From positions 1 through 32,048 of IMG/VR virus record IMGVR_UViG_3300009177_000085: a stretch of DNA of 32,048 nt, one strand, 5' to 3'. The stretch is from a virus. Position 1 is the stretch's first letter, and each line of letters starts with the position of its first letter. Under the pieces are notes generated by a model. That model was not told the DNA's origin, did no database searches, and worked only from the letters and a program-made list of their open reading frames with translations. Of the stretch, positions 996 through 6,448 are shown one piece after another. The position numbers and the translations under genes were made by a program.

Positions 996-1363
996 TGGCA
1001 GAGAAGAAGCGCCGCATAGCCGTCGATCTTGACGGCGTTTTGCACGATTATACCACGTGGGACGGTCTTGCGCCGACTGGTGACCCAGTGCCCGGCGCGC
1101 AGCGCTTCATCACGAACCTGCTCGAAGATGGTTACGAAGTGTTTGTGTTCTCGGCGCGTGCCGGTGAGAAGGGTGGCCCTGCCGCAATTCGACAGTGGTT
1201 GAGCGAGAACGAGTTCCCGCAGATGGATGTGACAGACAAAAAAATTCCTGCTGATGTCTATGTCGATGACAGGGGATTTAGATTTGAGGGCAGCTTCGAT
1301 GACGCGCTCAAGTTCATCCACTCTGACGAGGCCGAGCCCTGGACGACGCGAGGGGAGAAATGA
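995..1363 (+). CDS. HAD-superfamily hydrolase (phosphatase-like)
   Basis: This encodes 122 residues. Motif I is VDLDGVLHDY, with the nucleophile Asp11 and general acid Asp13. Motif II is the Ser in VFVFSARAG (Ser53). A Lys pair (82-83) and YVDDRGF (Asp91-Asp92) match motifs III and IV. The protein is short, with no cap insert beyond residues 18-35, as in small phage and bacterial HAD phosphatases related to nucleotidases. The ATG at 995 overlaps the upstream stop. Its own TGA (1361-1363) overlaps the terminase ATG at 1360, so it sits directly in the packaging operon. The likely activity is on a phosphorylated nucleotide or nucleic-acid end; the substrate cannot be read from the sequence. Confidence 0.85.
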   Translation: MAEKKRRIAVDLDGVLHDYTTWDGLAPTGDPVPGAQRFITNLLEDGYEVFVFSARAGEKGGPAAIRQWLSENEFPQMDVTDKKIPADVYVDDRGFRFEGSFDDALKFIHSDEAEPWTTRGEK

Positions 1364-3987
1364 AAAAATCTCGCGCACCGTTCGATGAGTTGGACACGCA
1401 GCGCATAGCCGAGTGCTACAAGGTGTCCGGTTCGGTGAAAAAGATCGCCGTGTGGTACAACACGAGCGGCCAGTTGATCCGGCAGCACTTGGCCAAGGCT
1501 GGTATCGATGTGCCTGACCGGTCGTTCCTGAACGGCAAGAAACTGGTCGAACGGGGGCCGGCGCTGGACGATGTTGGGCTGGACGATCTGCGCACGAACT
1601 ACGGGGCGTTTGCGTTGGCCGTGCACCCTGATTGGGGGTACACGCATTTCCAACAAGCCATCCTTGCGCCGAGGCTGGAAGGCATTGCTCTTTGTAATCC
1701 AGCTTGTCGGCGGCAGATAATTTCGATGCCGTTTCGGCATAGCAAAACTCAATTTTGTGTCGAGACCTTTCTGCCGTTCTACTTTGGGCACAACCCAGAA
1801 CACTCAGTCATTCTGCTTGGCTACGGTAAAGCCTTATCTCGTACATCGGGTCGAACGATCCGTGAGATAATGAAAAGTGACCTGTACCAAGCGTTGTTCC
1901 CGTCAGCGTCCTTGACCAAGTTCAGCCGGGCGCAGGACGAGTTTCAGACGGTGAGCGGCGGTAAGTTTTATGCCGGCGGTTTTGATACCGGTGTGAATGG
2001 GCGAGGCGCACATTTGCTCTGCGTCGCGCAAGGTTCTCTCGTAACGACGCGACGCGGCCAAGTACCAATCGAACACGTTACGGTTGCAGACGAAGTTGCG
2101 ACTCCGTGGGCGTGGCAACGTGTTGAACGCGTGATGCACAACGGCGTGCGCCGGGTGATCCGTATTGGTTATGGTACGCACTCATTGACAGTGACTCACG
2201 ATCATCATATACTAACCCCGACCGGCTGGAGAGAAGCTGGTACTCTGCGAAAAGGGGACCGCGTATATGGTGTGCAAACAATGCCACAAGGCGTACGAGC
2301 CAAAAGAGAAGCGTCTCAACAAGCGCAAGAGCAAGTTCTGTTCGCCGACGTGCAGCAAGGAATGGACGCGGGTGTACTTCGAGAGCCGGCGCCCGGTGTG
2401 CAAACAGTGTGGTACGAGACTCGCCCGAGGCAAGGGGAAGCGCATGTTTTGCAATCAAACGTGTTACTCCGAATGGGCGCAGACAACGGGTGGCCTGCGT
2501 TCGTTGCGCCCGATCCTTTGTGCTACGTGCAACCGGGAGTTTCGGCCAACGAGTTACAAGACTCAGTTTTGTTCGATGGTCTGCAAGGAGCAAGCGCACG
2601 CGACGTTGATGGCTGGGAGGAACAATCCCAATTACCGTACTGGCAAATACCTGACGTACTACCTGCGGCGTTTCAAGAAGCGGCTATCGCCGCAGCTACG
2701 GGACCGATACCGCGCCTGCTTCGAGTGCAGTACAACGCACAACTTGATCGGGCATCACATGGACGAGAACAAGAGGAACGATACGATCGAGAACATTGCG
2801 GTCCTCTGTCAACCGTGTCACATGAAATTTCACAAGTCGAAGAATGCGGCTTCGCGCGAGTCTATGACATCCAAGTGGCAGAAGATCATTGCTTCATCGC
2901 TGACGGAATCTTCGTCCACAACTGTATAGACGATCCGCACAAGTCACGGCAGGAAATGGCCAGCGACACGATCATGTCGCAGAAGCGGGAGATGTACAAC
3001 GGGGTGGTGCGGGTGCGTCTCGAACCGAGTGCGGCGATCATCATTGCCAGTACGCGGTGGACGCCGGATGACTTGATCGGGTGGCGGGTGAGTGAGGATG
3101 GTGGGTGGGACGTGCAGCAGAATAGGCCGTACACAGATGGGCAGAGCAAGCCGAGTGACAAGCGCGGGCTGTGGGATGTGATCCGCCTACGCGCGATTGC
3201 TACCGAGGAAGAAGGCTGGCGCCATGAAGGCGATCCGCTCTGGCCCGAGCGGTGGCCGGTAGCCGAGCTGGAGCCGATCAAGAACGCCGACCTGTCAGTG
3301 TGGGAGGCTAGCTACCAACAAGAACCAACCATCGCTGGCGGCTACTGGTTCGCCAACACGCCCCTCAACTACTACGAGGAGACCAATGCGCGCGACCTCA
3401 ATGTCTACATGGTCTGTGACCCGGCGCTGCGTAAGACCAAGAAAGCCGACTTCACGGTCATACTCGTGTTCGGAACCGCTGGAGACGGAAATTACTATTG
3501 GCTCGACTGTGTCCGCGCACGCCTTGATCCCACCGAACGAGCTGATCATATCTTCCGTATGCACCGAAAGTGGAGGCCAATTTCTGTGGGCTACGAGGAG
3601 TACGGTCTCCAAGCGGACGTTGTTACATTGAAGGACCGAATGGAGCGGGAGAATTATCGGTTCCAGATAATCGAGCTGGGCCGGAGTGGGGAGTGGCACA
3701 ACCTGTCCAAGCCCGACCGCATCCGTACGCTGATGCCCATCGCCAACGCGGGCCGCATTTGGCTACCCAACCCCGAGACGCGCGGGCGTGACGCTGAGGT
3801 GGTCGAGGCAATCAAACGGTTTGTAAACGAGGAGTGGCAAAAGTATCCTGCGTGCAAGTACGACGACGTGATCGACGCGATGAGTAGAATGTGCGACCCG
3901 GCCATGCGTGTAGTGTTCCCGGCGCCCGTGCGCGAGAGCGCGCCGCCGCGCCCCAGACCCCCAGGTGCTTCATGGATGTCAGCCTAG
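1360..3987 (+). CDS. Terminase large subunit, interrupted by an intein
   Basis: This is the ATP-driven DNA packaging motor and nuclease. The precursor has 875 residues; removing the intein (2020-2922) leaves 574, normal for the family. The ATPase half has a deviant Walker A at residues 123-130 (MPFRHSKT), the equivalent of PPRHGKS in related terminases. Walker B is LLCIDDPHK, rebuilt across the splice junction, and motif III is STRWTPDDL. The nuclease half shows three acidic sites: VCDPAL, GYEEYG and YDDVIDAM. The first ~55 residues carry a helix-turn-helix-like segment (AECYKVSGSVKKIAVWYNTS), more often found in small terminase subunits. The ATGA overlap with the HAD gene fixes the start. 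Codons around 1680-1880 look less GC-rich than the rest. Confidence 0.95.
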   Translation: MKKSRAPFDELDTQRIAECYKVSGSVKKIAVWYNTSGQLIRQHLAKAGIDVPDRSFLNGKKLVERGPALDDVGLDDLRTNYGAFALAVHPDWGYTHFQQAILAPRLEGIALCNPACRRQIISMPFRHSKTQFCVETFLPFYFGHNPEHSVILLGYGKALSRTSGRTIREIMKSDLYQALFPSASLTKFSRAQDEFQTVSGGKFYAGGFDTGVNGRGAHLLCVAQGSLVTTRRGQVPIEHVTVADEVATPWAWQRVERVMHNGVRRVIRIGYGTHSLTVTHDHHILTPTGWREAGTLRKGDRVYGVQTMPQGVRAKREASQQAQEQVLFADVQQGMDAGVLREPAPGVQTVWYETRPRQGEAHVLQSNVLLRMGADNGWPAFVAPDPLCYVQPGVSANELQDSVLFDGLQGASARDVDGWEEQSQLPYWQIPDVLPAAFQEAAIAAATGPIPRLLRVQYNAQLDRASHGREQEERYDREHCGPLSTVSHEISQVEECGFARVYDIQVAEDHCFIADGIFVHNCIDDPHKSRQEMASDTIMSQKREMYNGVVRVRLEPSAAIIIASTRWTPDDLIGWRVSEDGGWDVQQNRPYTDGQSKPSDKRGLWDVIRLRAIATEEEGWRHEGDPLWPERWPVAELEPIKNADLSVWEASYQQEPTIAGGYWFANTPLNYYEETNARDLNVYMVCDPALRKTKKADFTVILVFGTAGDGNYYWLDCVRARLDPTERADHIFRMHRKWRPISVGYEEYGLQADVVTLKDRMERENYRFQIIELGRSGEWHNLSKPDRIRTLMPIANAGRIWLPNPETRGRDAEVVEAIKRFVNEEWQKYPACKYDDVIDAMSRMCDPAMRVVFPAPVRESAPPRPRPPGASWMSA
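2020..2922 (+). other. Intein in the terminase Walker B motif (301 residues)
   Basis: Protein-splicing element in the terminase frame. It starts with Cys (TGC 2020-2022) in block A, CVAQGSLVTTRRGQVPIEHV. Block B is LTVTHDHHILT, with the TxxH motif. The N-terminal splicing part ends near LRKGDRVYG (about 2271). The C-terminal part runs from about 2840 with block F, VYDIQVAEDHCFIADG, and block G, VHN, followed by Cys+1 (2923-2925). All residues needed for standard Cys1/Asn/Cys+1 splicing are present. Between these parts the intein frame is open but Gln/Ala-rich, with no LAGLIDADG or HNH motif. That stretch instead encodes an endonuclease in another frame. Excision restores GRGAHLL-CIDDPHK in the terminase. 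Confidence 0.93.
2250..2258 (+). promoter_or_regulatory. Ribosome binding site inside the intein for the nested endonuclease
   Basis: AAAAGGGGA lies 8 bases before the ATG at 2267. It is a Shine-Dalgarno-like sequence in the middle of the terminase/intein reading frame. It gives the overlapping endonuclease frame its own translation start, so no frameshift is needed to make that protein. Confidence 0.6.
2267..2929 (+). CDS. HNH homing endonuclease with three zinc fingers, nested out of frame in the intein
   Basis: This encodes 220 residues in frame 2, inside the terminase/intein gene read in frame 1. Three tandem Cys4 fingers come first: C3/C6/C25/C29, C45/C48/C62/C66 and C85/C88/C102/C106. 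The HNH domain follows: CFEC (151-154), GHHMDE (His163-His164), ENIAVLC (Asn176) and CQPCHMKFH (181-189). The nuclease is therefore complete, and the fingers probably recognise the target DNA. The real domain ends near base 2834. The last ~27 residues are read over the intein block F, and the TAG (2927-2929) lies just past the splice junction. Basic Lys/Arg-rich composition is typical of homing endonucleases. Expression is probably from the internal ribosome binding site at 2250-2258. Confidence 0.88.
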   Translation: MVCKQCHKAYEPKEKRLNKRKSKFCSPTCSKEWTRVYFESRRPVCKQCGTRLARGKGKRMFCNQTCYSEWAQTTGGLRSLRPILCATCNREFRPTSYKTQFCSMVCKEQAHATLMAGRNNPNYRTGKYLTYYLRRFKKRLSPQLRDRYRACFECSTTHNLIGHHMDENKRNDTIENIAVLCQPCHMKFHKSKNAASRESMTSKWQKIIASSLTESSSTTV

Positions 3988-4283
3988 ACACGATTGACGA
4001 CGGCGTACTTGAGTTGACGGTCGGTGATTACTTGGAGATGGCTGGGTGGTTTGCCGGGCTACCGGACAGCATCCAAGAACTGTTCGCCAAGTTCTCGCCC
4101 GGTACCATGTGGGGGCTGCGGGCGGGCGCGATCCCGCACACGCACGAGGGCGACTGGTTCATGCCGAACGCGTTTCGACCGGACGGGACGATTGACATGG
4201 CGTGGTTCAGTCCGAGTGGGCTGTTGATCGGGCATGTGCTGGGCGTGAAGCCCGCTGACTTGCACCCACTGAGGGGTCATTGA
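3972..4283 (+). CDS. Small protein between terminase and portal, unknown function
   Basis: This encodes 103 residues. The chosen ATG (3972-3974) gives MDVSLDTIDDGVLEL and overlaps the terminase end by 16 bases; no strong ribosome binding site precedes it. The protein is acidic, with aromatic-rich stretches (YLEMAGWFAGL, TMWGLRAGAIPHTHEGDWFM, IDMAWFSPSGLLIGHVLGV). No signal peptide, metal cluster or known motif is visible. Its stop (TGA 4281-4283) shares a base with the portal ATG, so the two are coupled. An accessory role in head assembly or packaging is a guess from position only. Confidence 0.7.
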   Translation: MDVSLDTIDDGVLELTVGDYLEMAGWFAGLPDSIQELFAKFSPGTMWGLRAGAIPHTHEGDWFMPNAFRPDGTIDMAWFSPSGLLIGHVLGVKPADLHPLRGH

Positions 4284-6448
4284 TGCCAACTGACGCGAGT
4301 GCCGGCGACGGCTGGAAAGACACGAGCTGGGGCACGCCGGGTGACCGGCGACCTGACGAGCACAAGCCGACCACGGCAGGCACAGACTTGCCCGGCGACC
4401 CGCTCGCACGGTGGGCGCTTGAGCAGATCGAAAAATGCCGCACGACCGTGGGCAAGTGGCGCAAGCAGGCGATGGAGGCAGATCGGTTCGCGGCAGGTAA
4501 GCATTTTAGCAAGGCGGACCTGGAGCTGCTCGAAGCCGAGATGCGCCCGACGAGTGTGTTCAACGCGGCGCAGAAGTGGTTGCGGTACATCGGGGGCATT
4601 GAACGGCAGAGCAAGCTGGACATCCATTTTCTGCCCCGGCAAGTGCACGACGAGATGCAGGCGCGTGCGGGTGATTTGGTCACCAAGGCGTACGAGTGGG
4701 TGTTGCAGAACTGCAACGGTGACAGCGAGCGCAGCATGGCCTTCGACGACATGCTTCGTCGCGGTATGGGCTGGACCGACACACAGTTCGACCGCAGCAT
4801 GGACGCGAGCGGGAACATCAATGTGAAGCGGACGGATGGGCTGGAGATGTTGTGGGATGTCCGTAGCACGAGCCCATGTGTGACCGAAGACGCGCGGTGG
4901 GTCGGGCGCGAGCGGCAGATCAGTAAGACGGAGGCACTGAAGCGATGGGGCGACAAGCACCGGGCCGTGATCTTGGCGAACGTGGGCGTGAGCAGCAGCT
5001 CGTCGCGCCCGCAGGAGAGCGTGTTGATCAGCGAGAAGGAAGCCATACCGATCACGAGCGGCGTCGAGTGGCCCACGATCGCAGCTGGCAACGTGCGCGT
5101 GGTCGAGTTCCAATGGTACGACGAGGTCGTTGGGGTATACTTTGTTGACCCACTCAGCGGCAAGGACGACTGGCTAGACGAGGCCACGTTCGCCGAGTAC
5201 CAACGCCGGTACAAGAAGTTGTTCGGTGGCGCGGAGATCGACCACGACAAGATGTTCATGCGCCAGTACCAGCGCATCGTGATCATCGGCCAGACTGTGG
5301 TAGCGGGGCCGTTCGACCTGCCCGGTAAGCGCTTCACTTTCAACTGCGTGACCGGCCAACGTGACGAAGAAGACTGCATCCACTACGGCTTCATGCGCCT
5401 GCTCATGGACCCGCAGAAGTACATGACCAAGTACGCGAATCAGGTCATGGAGATTATCAGTCGTCAGGCGAAGGGTGGGTTGCTGGCCGAGGAAGACGCG
5501 TTTGTCAATCCGCAAGAGGCCGAGCAAGCCTACGCGCGGCCCGGCTCGATCACGCTGCTCAAGCGGGGTGGCTTGCAGTTGGTCAAGGACAAGGAACAGC
5601 CGTCCATCCCGCCCGCCTCGATCGAAATGTTCCAGGTGTGCAACCAGATGATGCGGGACGTGACCGGCATCTCACCCGAGGTGAGTATGGGCATGGGTGG
5701 GGGCGATCAGCCCGCGCTGACCATGCGCCAGCGCCAGTCAGCGAGTACGCTGCTGCTCGCGCACGAGTTCGACAACCTGCGCCGGTACCGGGAGAACGAG
5801 GCTAAAACAATATTTGATTTCTTGCAGTTCATCGCCGATGACCGGATCGTGCGCGTGGGTGGCCCGTTCGACGCGGAGGCGGTCAAGCTGATCCGTCAAC
5901 CGTTCTTCCTCGAATACGATGTGGTCATGGACGAAGGCACACGCGACCCGAACGTGCGCGAGCAGTATATGGCCACGATCGAGCGCCTTGCACCCACGCT
6001 GATCAGGACGAACAACTTCCTACCCGAAATGATCGACTTCTTCCCACTCCCGGCCAGCCTGAAGTTCTCGATCAAGCAAGCAATGGCGCGGCAGGCCGAG
6101 ATGCAACAGCAGCTCGCGCAGAAGGGCTTGAGCATGGGCGGGCGTGGGAAACCTATCTCGTTCGAGCAGGTGCAGGCACAAACGCAGCTGACCAAGGCGC
6201 AGGCGGCTGAGAAGCTGGCGAAGGCGCAGAAGCTGGCCGATGACATGCAGGCGAGCAAGAGCAAGATGTTGCTGGAAGCGATCATCAAAAAGGCCGAGAT
6301 GGACGCGGCCCAGAAGAACGAGGTGATGAAACAACAAGGGGAGATGACCCGTTGGCGTGGTGACAAGATGGCGGGTATGGTTGACTTGGCAGGTAACCTG
6401 TTCGGGCAGGCTATGAAGCAGGGAGGGGGCACGAATGAACAAGGTTGA
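4283..6448 (+). CDS. Portal protein (P22-type)
   Basis: This encodes 721 residues, in the size range of P22-like portals. A GAGGGG site (4271-4276) precedes the ATG at 4283; an in-frame TTG just upstream is less likely. Family-like segments include VFNAAQKWLRYIGGIERQS near residue 95, a clip/stem region around SRQAKGGLLAEEDAFVNPQE, then DVTGISPEVSMG and ALTMRQRQSASTLLLAHEFD, and a long Gln/Lys/Ala-rich helical C-terminus (about residues 600-700) like the barrel helices of P22-type portals. The protein would form the dodecameric ring at one capsid vertex through which DNA is packaged and ejected. It lies after terminase and before scaffold, the usual order. Confidence 0.9.
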   Translation: MPTDASAGDGWKDTSWGTPGDRRPDEHKPTTAGTDLPGDPLARWALEQIEKCRTTVGKWRKQAMEADRFAAGKHFSKADLELLEAEMRPTSVFNAAQKWLRYIGGIERQSKLDIHFLPRQVHDEMQARAGDLVTKAYEWVLQNCNGDSERSMAFDDMLRRGMGWTDTQFDRSMDASGNINVKRTDGLEMLWDVRSTSPCVTEDARWVGRERQISKTEALKRWGDKHRAVILANVGVSSSSSRPQESVLISEKEAIPITSGVEWPTIAAGNVRVVEFQWYDEVVGVYFVDPLSGKDDWLDEATFAEYQRRYKKLFGGAEIDHDKMFMRQYQRIVIIGQTVVAGPFDLPGKRFTFNCVTGQRDEEDCIHYGFMRLLMDPQKYMTKYANQVMEIISRQAKGGLLAEEDAFVNPQEAEQAYARPGSITLLKRGGLQLVKDKEQPSIPPASIEMFQVCNQMMRDVTGISPEVSMGMGGGDQPALTMRQRQSASTLLLAHEFDNLRRYRENEAKTIFDFLQFIADDRIVRVGGPFDAEAVKLIRQPFFLEYDVVMDEGTRDPNVREQYMATIERLAPTLIRTNNFLPEMIDFFPLPASLKFSIKQAMARQAEMQQQLAQKGLSMGGRGKPISFEQVQAQTQLTKAQAAEKLAKAQKLADDMQASKSKMLLEAIIKKAEMDAAQKNEVMKQQGEMTRWRGDKMAGMVDLAGNLFGQAMKQGGGTNEQG

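Follow-up and report, generated by a model that had tools for sequence, protein, structure and literature searches.

We report here that the window, by which we mean the whole stretch of DNA analysed (32,048 nucleotides, positions 1 to 32,048 of the IMG/VR virus record IMGVR_UViG_3300009177_000085), carries in the terminase large subunit (TerL) gene of a tailed soil phage an intein whose middle also encodes a zinc-finger/HNH nuclease in the +1 reading frame. It is very probably a composite mobile element, namely a class-1 intein whose homing endonuclease forms a separate overprinted cistron, which could be described as a bicistronic homing intein and in which a homing nuclease and a protein-splicing domain would share the same DNA in two frames. 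The overprinted layout recurs in dozens of other phage genomes. The features of the locus are listed below; pLDDT denotes the predicted local distance difference test score of AlphaFold2, and slashes mark splice junctions.

1360-3987, plus strand: TerL precursor (N-extein, intein, C-extein), one open frame of 875 residues (PHROG_38, 3.5e-75; Terminase_6C)
2020-2922, plus strand: intein of 301 residues, Cys1 to Asn301, at the TerL Walker-B motif (..HLL/C..N/CIDDPHK), from profile matches, Hint fold and Foldseek
2020-2271, plus strand: N-terminal splicing region, blocks A and B, with invariant C1, T59 and H62 (45-intein alignment; pLDDT 82-98)
2252-2257, plus strand: putative Shine-Dalgarno motif AAGGGG, 9 nt before the nuclease ATG and within the codons of the intein K-G-D-R motif (sequence reading)
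2267-2929, plus strand: zinc-finger/HNH nuclease of 220 residues, frame +1 relative to TerL (PHROG_1271, 4e-17; invariant residues; AlphaFold2 pLDDT 82.6)
2519-2584, plus strand: third zinc-finger pair, C85xxC88 ... C102, C106 (conservation among homologues)
2717-2836, plus strand: HNH catalytic core, C151..H163H164..N176..C181xxC184H185..H189 (Pfam HNH, 0.0088; conservation; AlphaFold2)
2803-2922, plus strand: C-terminal splicing region, blocks F and G (VYDIQV..IFVHN), with invariant D283, F292 and N301 (TIGR01443, 1.3e-7; pLDDT 81-97)
2923-2925, plus strand: +1 extein residue Cys, followed by the Walker-B IDDP (sequence reading)

The splicing domain and the nuclease

An initial annotation, made from the letters of the DNA and its open reading frames (ORFs), had described a terminase/intein frame open throughout with intact blocks A, B, F and G, a zinc-finger plus HNH nuclease written in another frame over the intein middle, and a nuclease stop codon just past the splice junction. 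All three points were borne out, the stop (2927-2929) occupying bases 5-7 beyond the junction, and the database search per frame that it had proposed returned intein profiles for frame 1, the TerL frame, and the PHROG_1271 HNH endonuclease family for the +1 frame, over nuclease residues 2-198.

From the Cys1 codon (2020-2022) to the Asn301 codon (2920-2922), the intein displays the class 1 splicing residues C1, T59xxH62, VYDIQV (D283) and HN301, with the +1 Cys, all invariant or nearly so among 45 relatives; across these 45 inteins the only invariant residues are C1, T59, H62, D283, F292 and N301, none of which lies in the middle. The intein frame scores above the cut-off of TIGR01443 (intein C-terminal region) and just misses that of Pfam Intein_splicing (8e-8; 32.6 bits, the curated value being 35.8), and matches mini-intein structures such as Mtu RecA (2.7e-9) and also DnaX. 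TIGR01443 is matched by 44 of the 45 inteins and TIGR01445 by 41. AlphaFold2 folds residues 1-84 and 262-301 into a confident Hint fold (pLDDT 80-98) and leaves most of residues 125-261 below 50, and Foldseek places this model with mini-inteins (E 1e-7, TM(target) score about 0.84-0.89). Both halves of the intein are contained in the single open frame 1360-3987, rather than in separate genes as in a split intein, and the HNH lies in +1 over an intein-frame middle without invariant residues, which distinguishes it from a canonical in-frame nuclease. A group I intron was also considered and dropped, since no Rfam family matched 1360-3987 at E<=1 and the host frame stays open throughout. Downstream of the TerL gene, this 32 kb piece of tailed-phage genome encodes a portal protein (4280-6448, PHROG_156).

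In the other frame, the nuclease carries several CxxC pairs plus the HNH core. Eleven positions are invariant in 46 HNH proteins (C85, C88, C102, C106, N120, C151, H163, H164, N176, H185 and H189), all of them Cys, His or Asn, and ten sit in the fingers or the HNH core. AlphaFold2 models the HNH frame (mean pLDDT 82.6) with a beta-beta-alpha metal core, formed by strands 160-164 and 177-181 and helix 182-190, on which H163/H164, N176 and H185/H189 are arranged with structural Cys as in His-Me finger enzymes. The best structural rows obtained for this model with VIA-align were the HNH domains of IscB, Cap5 and McrA, at modest Z scores of 5-7, and Foldseek gave no match for it at E<=0.001. Taken together, the AlphaFold2 models indicate that DNA coding for a folded nuclease in the +1 frame is read as a disordered linker in the intein frame. 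At 2269-2283 and 2395-2409 there is a 15-nt direct repeat, GGTGTGCAAACA(A/G)TG, which codes for VCKQC of two zinc fingers and points to an internal duplication of the zinc-finger unit in the HNH frame.

Chance and artefact

The overprinted nuclease is neither an assembly error nor a product of chance. A second, longer (58 kb) IMG/VR record is identical to the window over all 6984 bases compared, and the relatives described below keep the +1 phase, so that an indel artefact, including a missed indel that would place the HNH domain in frame with the splicing blocks, is excluded. Single-sequence searches of viral contigs with the intein or the HNH of the window retrieved this identical record only. 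When the HNH protein was held fixed and its synonymous codons were shuffled, the intein frame showed 0 stops vs 10.7 expected (P<1/2000), with 6 vs 6.2 in the third frame; the test, run on the window and about 37 loci, supports dual coding. With the intein protein fixed, only 2.0 stops are expected in the HNH frame, and its openness is not significant (P=0.087). The exteins of the gene have a GC content of 0.66-0.74 at third codon positions; in the overlap, GC by codon position is 0.73/0.45/0.47 in the intein frame and 0.45/0.47/0.74 in the HNH frame. Because the openness of the HNH frame is insignificant in a GC-rich gene, it is homology, together with the selection seen in relatives, that makes the case for the nuclease, and not the length of its ORF.

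Inteins of the terminase Walker-B site

The best annotated-phage matches of the HNH protein lie within the terminase genes of Gordonia phage Clown and Synechococcus phage S-EIVl, where the nuclease likewise occupies the +1 frame of a terminase intein in the same Walker-B region. An HNH profile search of IMG/VR yielded 76 loci, most of them with this layout. In order to reduce the bias of an HNH query, a second profile joined the intein C-terminal block to the Walker-B motif; it was built from HNH-bearing members and some bias remains. The HNH was present in 65 of the 77 junction-positive loci, always in +1. Both searches combined gave 95 distinct inteins (distinct in their last 300 nt, many being close variants), with the HNH in 84 and none in 11, again always in +1, and no in-frame HNH was seen among the 95. 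Full-length inteins bearing the HNH mostly measure 287-414 residues vs 117-152 in those without it, the latter being the size of a bare splicing domain; a few HNH-bearing lengths estimated at 147-211 represent truncated or decayed copies or a wrong automatic choice of Cys1. The overprinted HNH is the prevailing form of intein at the terminase Walker-B site in IMG/VR. The single continuous precursor with an overprinted nuclease that the initial annotation had proposed is what the DNA encodes, and is supported by about 84 related inteins in the same phase, while its sense of a single oddity had to be given up, both for this prevalence and because a similar out-of-frame HNH without an intein has been published (PMC11855218). 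In addition, one scan of genome contigs gave 2 loci, neither with the overprinted layout, and a profile search of 398 genomes gave 6 matches, in which a quick look at mid-locus ORFs, without every match being traced, revealed no overprinted intein.

Counted back from the Walker-B DD, the +1 Cys of the intein is found at a distance of 2, 3, 4 or 6 residues depending on the phage (the window vs L005, L004 and L078), so that insertion points within the motif differ by single codons. In two Streptomyces loci, plasmid pCQ3 (L295) and an S. seoulensis plasmid (L296), the annotation has the HNH but, of the terminase frame, no more than the C-terminal part, as a 'hypothetical protein', and the continuous terminase-intein frame was missed; overprinting would explain this gene-annotation error in Streptomyces plasmid-prophages.

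Selection in two frames

Codon-position counts were made in pairs of less than 10% divergence among 24 S-EIVl-like members. Host codon position 3 takes 68% of the differences in the N-extein and 86% in the C-extein, and in the overlap 69% of them fall at host position 1, which is HNH position 3. In 20-codon windows this frame switch is sharp at both ORF borders. Where splicing blocks overlap the nuclease both frames are constrained, and the C-terminal splicing block is under purifying selection like that of the exteins. Judged from these substitutions and from the invariant residues of each protein, conservation over the intein middle belongs to the HNH frame, and the intein frame there is free except for staying open. 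The reverse pattern, a conserved frame-1 middle over a broken HNH frame, was not what the homologues displayed. The element would offer a system of overlapping genes that nature has replicated many times and that bears a sharp signature of selection, and a supply of large inteins whose middle is a free linker.

These data bear on the possibility that the intein frame is only a relic, an HNH insertion that stays open by chance and does not splice. Such insertions exist: the ShiLan domain, or Pacc40 insertion, carries an out-of-frame HNH in a phage methylase, is open in the host frame and has no intein (Arsenault, Gosselin and Gogarten 2025, Genes 16:178, PMC11855218), and the HNH of Clown is homologous to that of ShiLan (E 3e-7). 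Set against this are the four intact splicing blocks, the catalytic residues invariant across 45 relatives, the two TIGR profiles matched by nearly all of them, the Hint fold predicted with high confidence and the extein-like selection on the C-terminal block, and we give the relic explanation hardly any credence.

Expression and proposed mechanism

The +1 frame of the window stays closed as far as 2214, after which an ATG follows AAGGGG at 9 nt spacing. The ribosome binding site claimed for the nuclease does have this candidate, which is putative, weak and not conserved across the family. We considered whether the conserved G-D motif of the intein might provide a constant Shine-Dalgarno source, as it does in the window, S-EIVl and the DNA polymerase (PolA) intein L081, and dropped the idea, since at least 4 Shine-Dalgarno bases near any start were found in only 25 of 66 loci. 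In the S-EIVl-like clade, the HNH frame is constrained already upstream of the G-D motif, from which its nuclease appears longer at the N-terminus than that of the window. In the L005-like clade (about 2250-2425 in L005), HNH-frame selection was observed some 180 nt upstream of the first plausible start preceded by a Shine-Dalgarno motif, suggesting an N-terminal extension overprinted on splicing blocks A-B.

Programmed +1 frameshifting is rare in phages. Since Shine-Dalgarno sites are inconsistent across the family, we nevertheless kept as a rival the expression of the nuclease by programmed ribosomal frameshifting from the TerL-intein frame, which would give a fusion of N-extein, N-terminal intein part and HNH. 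The constant +1 phase at the TerL site and the open, selected frame well upstream of the G-D motif in the relatives of S-EIVl would suit it; the closed frame before 2214 in the window, with the ATG and AAGGGG after it, and the +2 phase used by a different element (L176, see below) would not, and together with the rarity of such events they make frameshifting unlikely.

For the bicistronic homing intein, we propose the following mechanism. A ribosome reading TerL would make one precursor, from which the Hint domain (residues 1-84 and about 262-301) would excise itself, while about 180 residues, translated in the intein frame from the DNA of the nuclease, would be tolerated as a disordered linker. 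Another ribosome, starting internally at the ATG at 2267 behind the AAGGGG, would produce a free zinc-finger/HNH nuclease. This enzyme would cleave terminase alleles that lack the intein, close to the Walker-B codons, and during repair the intein and the nuclease would be copied in together. In this way the nuclease probably spreads copies of the insert to other phages.

Several points weigh against this interpretation. Splicing, nuclease expression by internal initiation and cleavage are steps that we infer; the Shine-Dalgarno motif is weak and not family-wide; the Pfam HNH match falls below the cut-off; the HNH of the window is a lone long branch; and the distribution data described below show mobility or loss without telling which. 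In addition, the window element is represented by one haplotype, for which reason selection was measured in relatives, at about 20-39% identity.

Empty, decayed and mini-intein alleles

Intein-less alleles, as expected for a homing endonuclease, were found in a related clade. Two phage contigs (L206 and L030) are 94-97% identical at the DNA level on either side of the site and differ by exactly a 1011-nt intein, the empty site of L206 reading SKRSHLVCIDDPIK and the filled site of L030 reading SKRSHL/CLIDDPIK. No intein-less allele was found among the window's own close kin. Among the 80 nearest terminase relatives, a simple motif test scored 73 as empty and left 7 unclassified. Decayed forms with an open host frame also occur, either through a stop codon within the HNH frame (L047) or through loss of parts of it by internal deletion (L069, L134 and L135), as do mini-inteins with an open host frame (L093, L108, L115, L116, L119, L121, L151 and L153). 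Armed, broken, mini and empty alleles would be the stages expected of a homing cycle, which might in this way become testable stage by stage.

The location of the HNH inside a terminase gene could also suggest a packaging helper of the terminase rather than a homing enzyme, and terminase-associated HNH packaging proteins have been described (Kala et al. 2014, as cited in PMC12613952). A packaging function agrees poorly with the absence of the element from most close TerL relatives, with the alleles bearing stops or deletions, with the same layout in DNA polymerase inteins with unrelated nucleases, and with the likeness of the three zinc-finger pairs plus HNH to insertion HNH enzymes such as that of ShiLan; we regard it as highly improbable.

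As to the origin of the element, the initial annotation had offered two routes. In the first, a mini-intein would have been invaded by an HNH gene in a frame other than its own; we place the invasion in the loop of the mini-intein, and the gene would then have been inherited and passed around in that phase. In the second, the nuclease would once have been an ordinary in-frame intein domain, moved out by a pair of frame changes; a sequencing indel could give the same picture. Canonical inteins do carry a nuclease at the same place in the Hint fold, and an indel in the overlap is seen in L130. That indel, however, shifts both frames and keeps the +1 relation in both halves; no in-frame HNH occurs among the 95 distinct inteins; the HNH ORF overlaps block F with its C-terminal portion, an impossibility for an in-frame domain; and as an artefact this route is already refuted by the identical second record. 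An in-frame ancestor is very unlikely in our view. Invasion fits better, since the site does have mini-inteins and yielded no in-frame version, and from the sequences compared the element would most likely have originated in this way. Mini-inteins can also arise by loss, so that the direction from mini-intein to armed intein is not proven. Invasion would show concretely how HNH genes that are free-standing or reside in introns can arm a mini-intein and still stay unfused to it.

Overprinted nucleases in other inteins

Other nuclease families were found overprinted in phage DNA polymerase inteins, from which we conclude that the arrangement arose repeatedly. The PolA intein L081 harbours an unrelated HNH (Pfam HNH_3, 1e-7) in +1. 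The PolA inteins of phage APSE-1 (P45/P46; L168, 677-3658) and Caulobacter phage RW (L167, 776-3658) carry in +1 a third nuclease family, at about 49% identity between the two; annotations have long treated the 3' part of the APSE-1 nuclease as a nested gene of its own, P46, named HNH endonuclease in RefSeq. A single open PolA frame in IMGVR_UViG_3300043411_000952 (L171, 3-6137) contains three inteins, one with a LAGLIDADG-like nuclease in frame and two with different overprinted +1 nucleases, namely an HNH_3 (2971-3549) and a 409-residue nuclease of the APSE-1 P46 kind (4252-5478). In L176 (1271-3739), a terminase bears an intein in its nuclease domain (HLMD/C...N/CSRYLN), and overprinted on it in +2 is an HNH whose zinc fingers are C-terminal (2962-3573). 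This last case is the weakest in the shuffle test (P=0.03), and all the other cases outside the Walker-B site are supported as dual coding. With L176 in +2, the constant +1 phase of the terminase Walker-B inteins is no proof of a mechanism.

In L081 (2049-2894), the nuclease shares 37-42% identity with HNH enzymes encoded within DNA polymerase genes of phages. Two of those genes are annotated as joined from two pieces around the HNH, which marks an intron, of group I, and the intron break lies about six codons from the L081 intein site, in the same PolA motif TGRLS(S/A)S(N/E)P (L081 vs L204 and L205). This suggests that one nuclease lineage with one target region has been carried by both introns and inteins.

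On balance, it seems rather likely that overprinting is a general third way to arm inteins, beside in-frame and split nucleases, and that phages put it together several times independently, from different families of nuclease, in +1 at the TerL Walker-B site and at two PolA sites, and in +2 at the site within the TerL nuclease domain (L176). Under this interpretation, splicing and homing domains would evolve, decay and be replaced separately, and the overprinted form would be the main mobile form of terminase Walker-B inteins.

Comparison with known systems

A 2025 bioRxiv preprint by Gosselin, Arsenault and Gogarten (10.1101/2025.01.02.630785), 'Actinobacteriophage inteins: ... non-canonical architecture', may, to judge by its title and by how it is cited, already describe the overprinted layout for actinophages. 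It is cited in connection with overlapping frames in PMC11855218, a paper of the same group. In the literature searched for inteins with an out-of-frame nuclease, we encountered the ShiLan work and a genome announcement reporting an element of that kind, and nothing further; a search on the APSE-1 P45 intein found no description of the overprinted architecture. The window element is an intein with a nuclease arrangement that we did not find described in the literature read, and it is not categorically new.

Split inteins with a free-standing endonuclease between their halves, in fractured genes, are known, and they resemble the window element in that the nuclease is expressed apart from the splicing domain; they differ in having intein and extein in two genes, whereas the precursor of the window is one open frame. 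Canonical inteins with a homing endonuclease, such as PI-MtuI and PI-SceI, share a splicing domain split by the nuclease at the same Hint loop, but in them a LAGLIDADG or HNH nuclease normally forms part of the same polypeptide, as a domain in frame. Mycobacteriophage TerL inteins, for which seven insertion sites have been catalogued, also lie in the terminase ATPase domain near functional motifs, and in the portions of that catalogue considered here no out-of-frame nuclease is mentioned (Kelley et al. 2016, PMC5050341). The inteins of APSE-1 and Caulobacter phage RW are alike in combining a polymerase intein with a nuclease ORF in +1, though with another extein and another nuclease family. 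Finally, the ShiLan domain resembles the window element in being an insertion in a phage gene that moves between phages, leaves the host frame open and has its zinc-finger HNH in a different frame, and methylase insertions similar to it were observed in L007 and L056. Its host is a methylase and its HNH lies in the third frame, and its insert is thought to stay in the protein because it has no intein motifs or Hint fold, whereas the HNH of the window is surrounded by a complete splicing domain.

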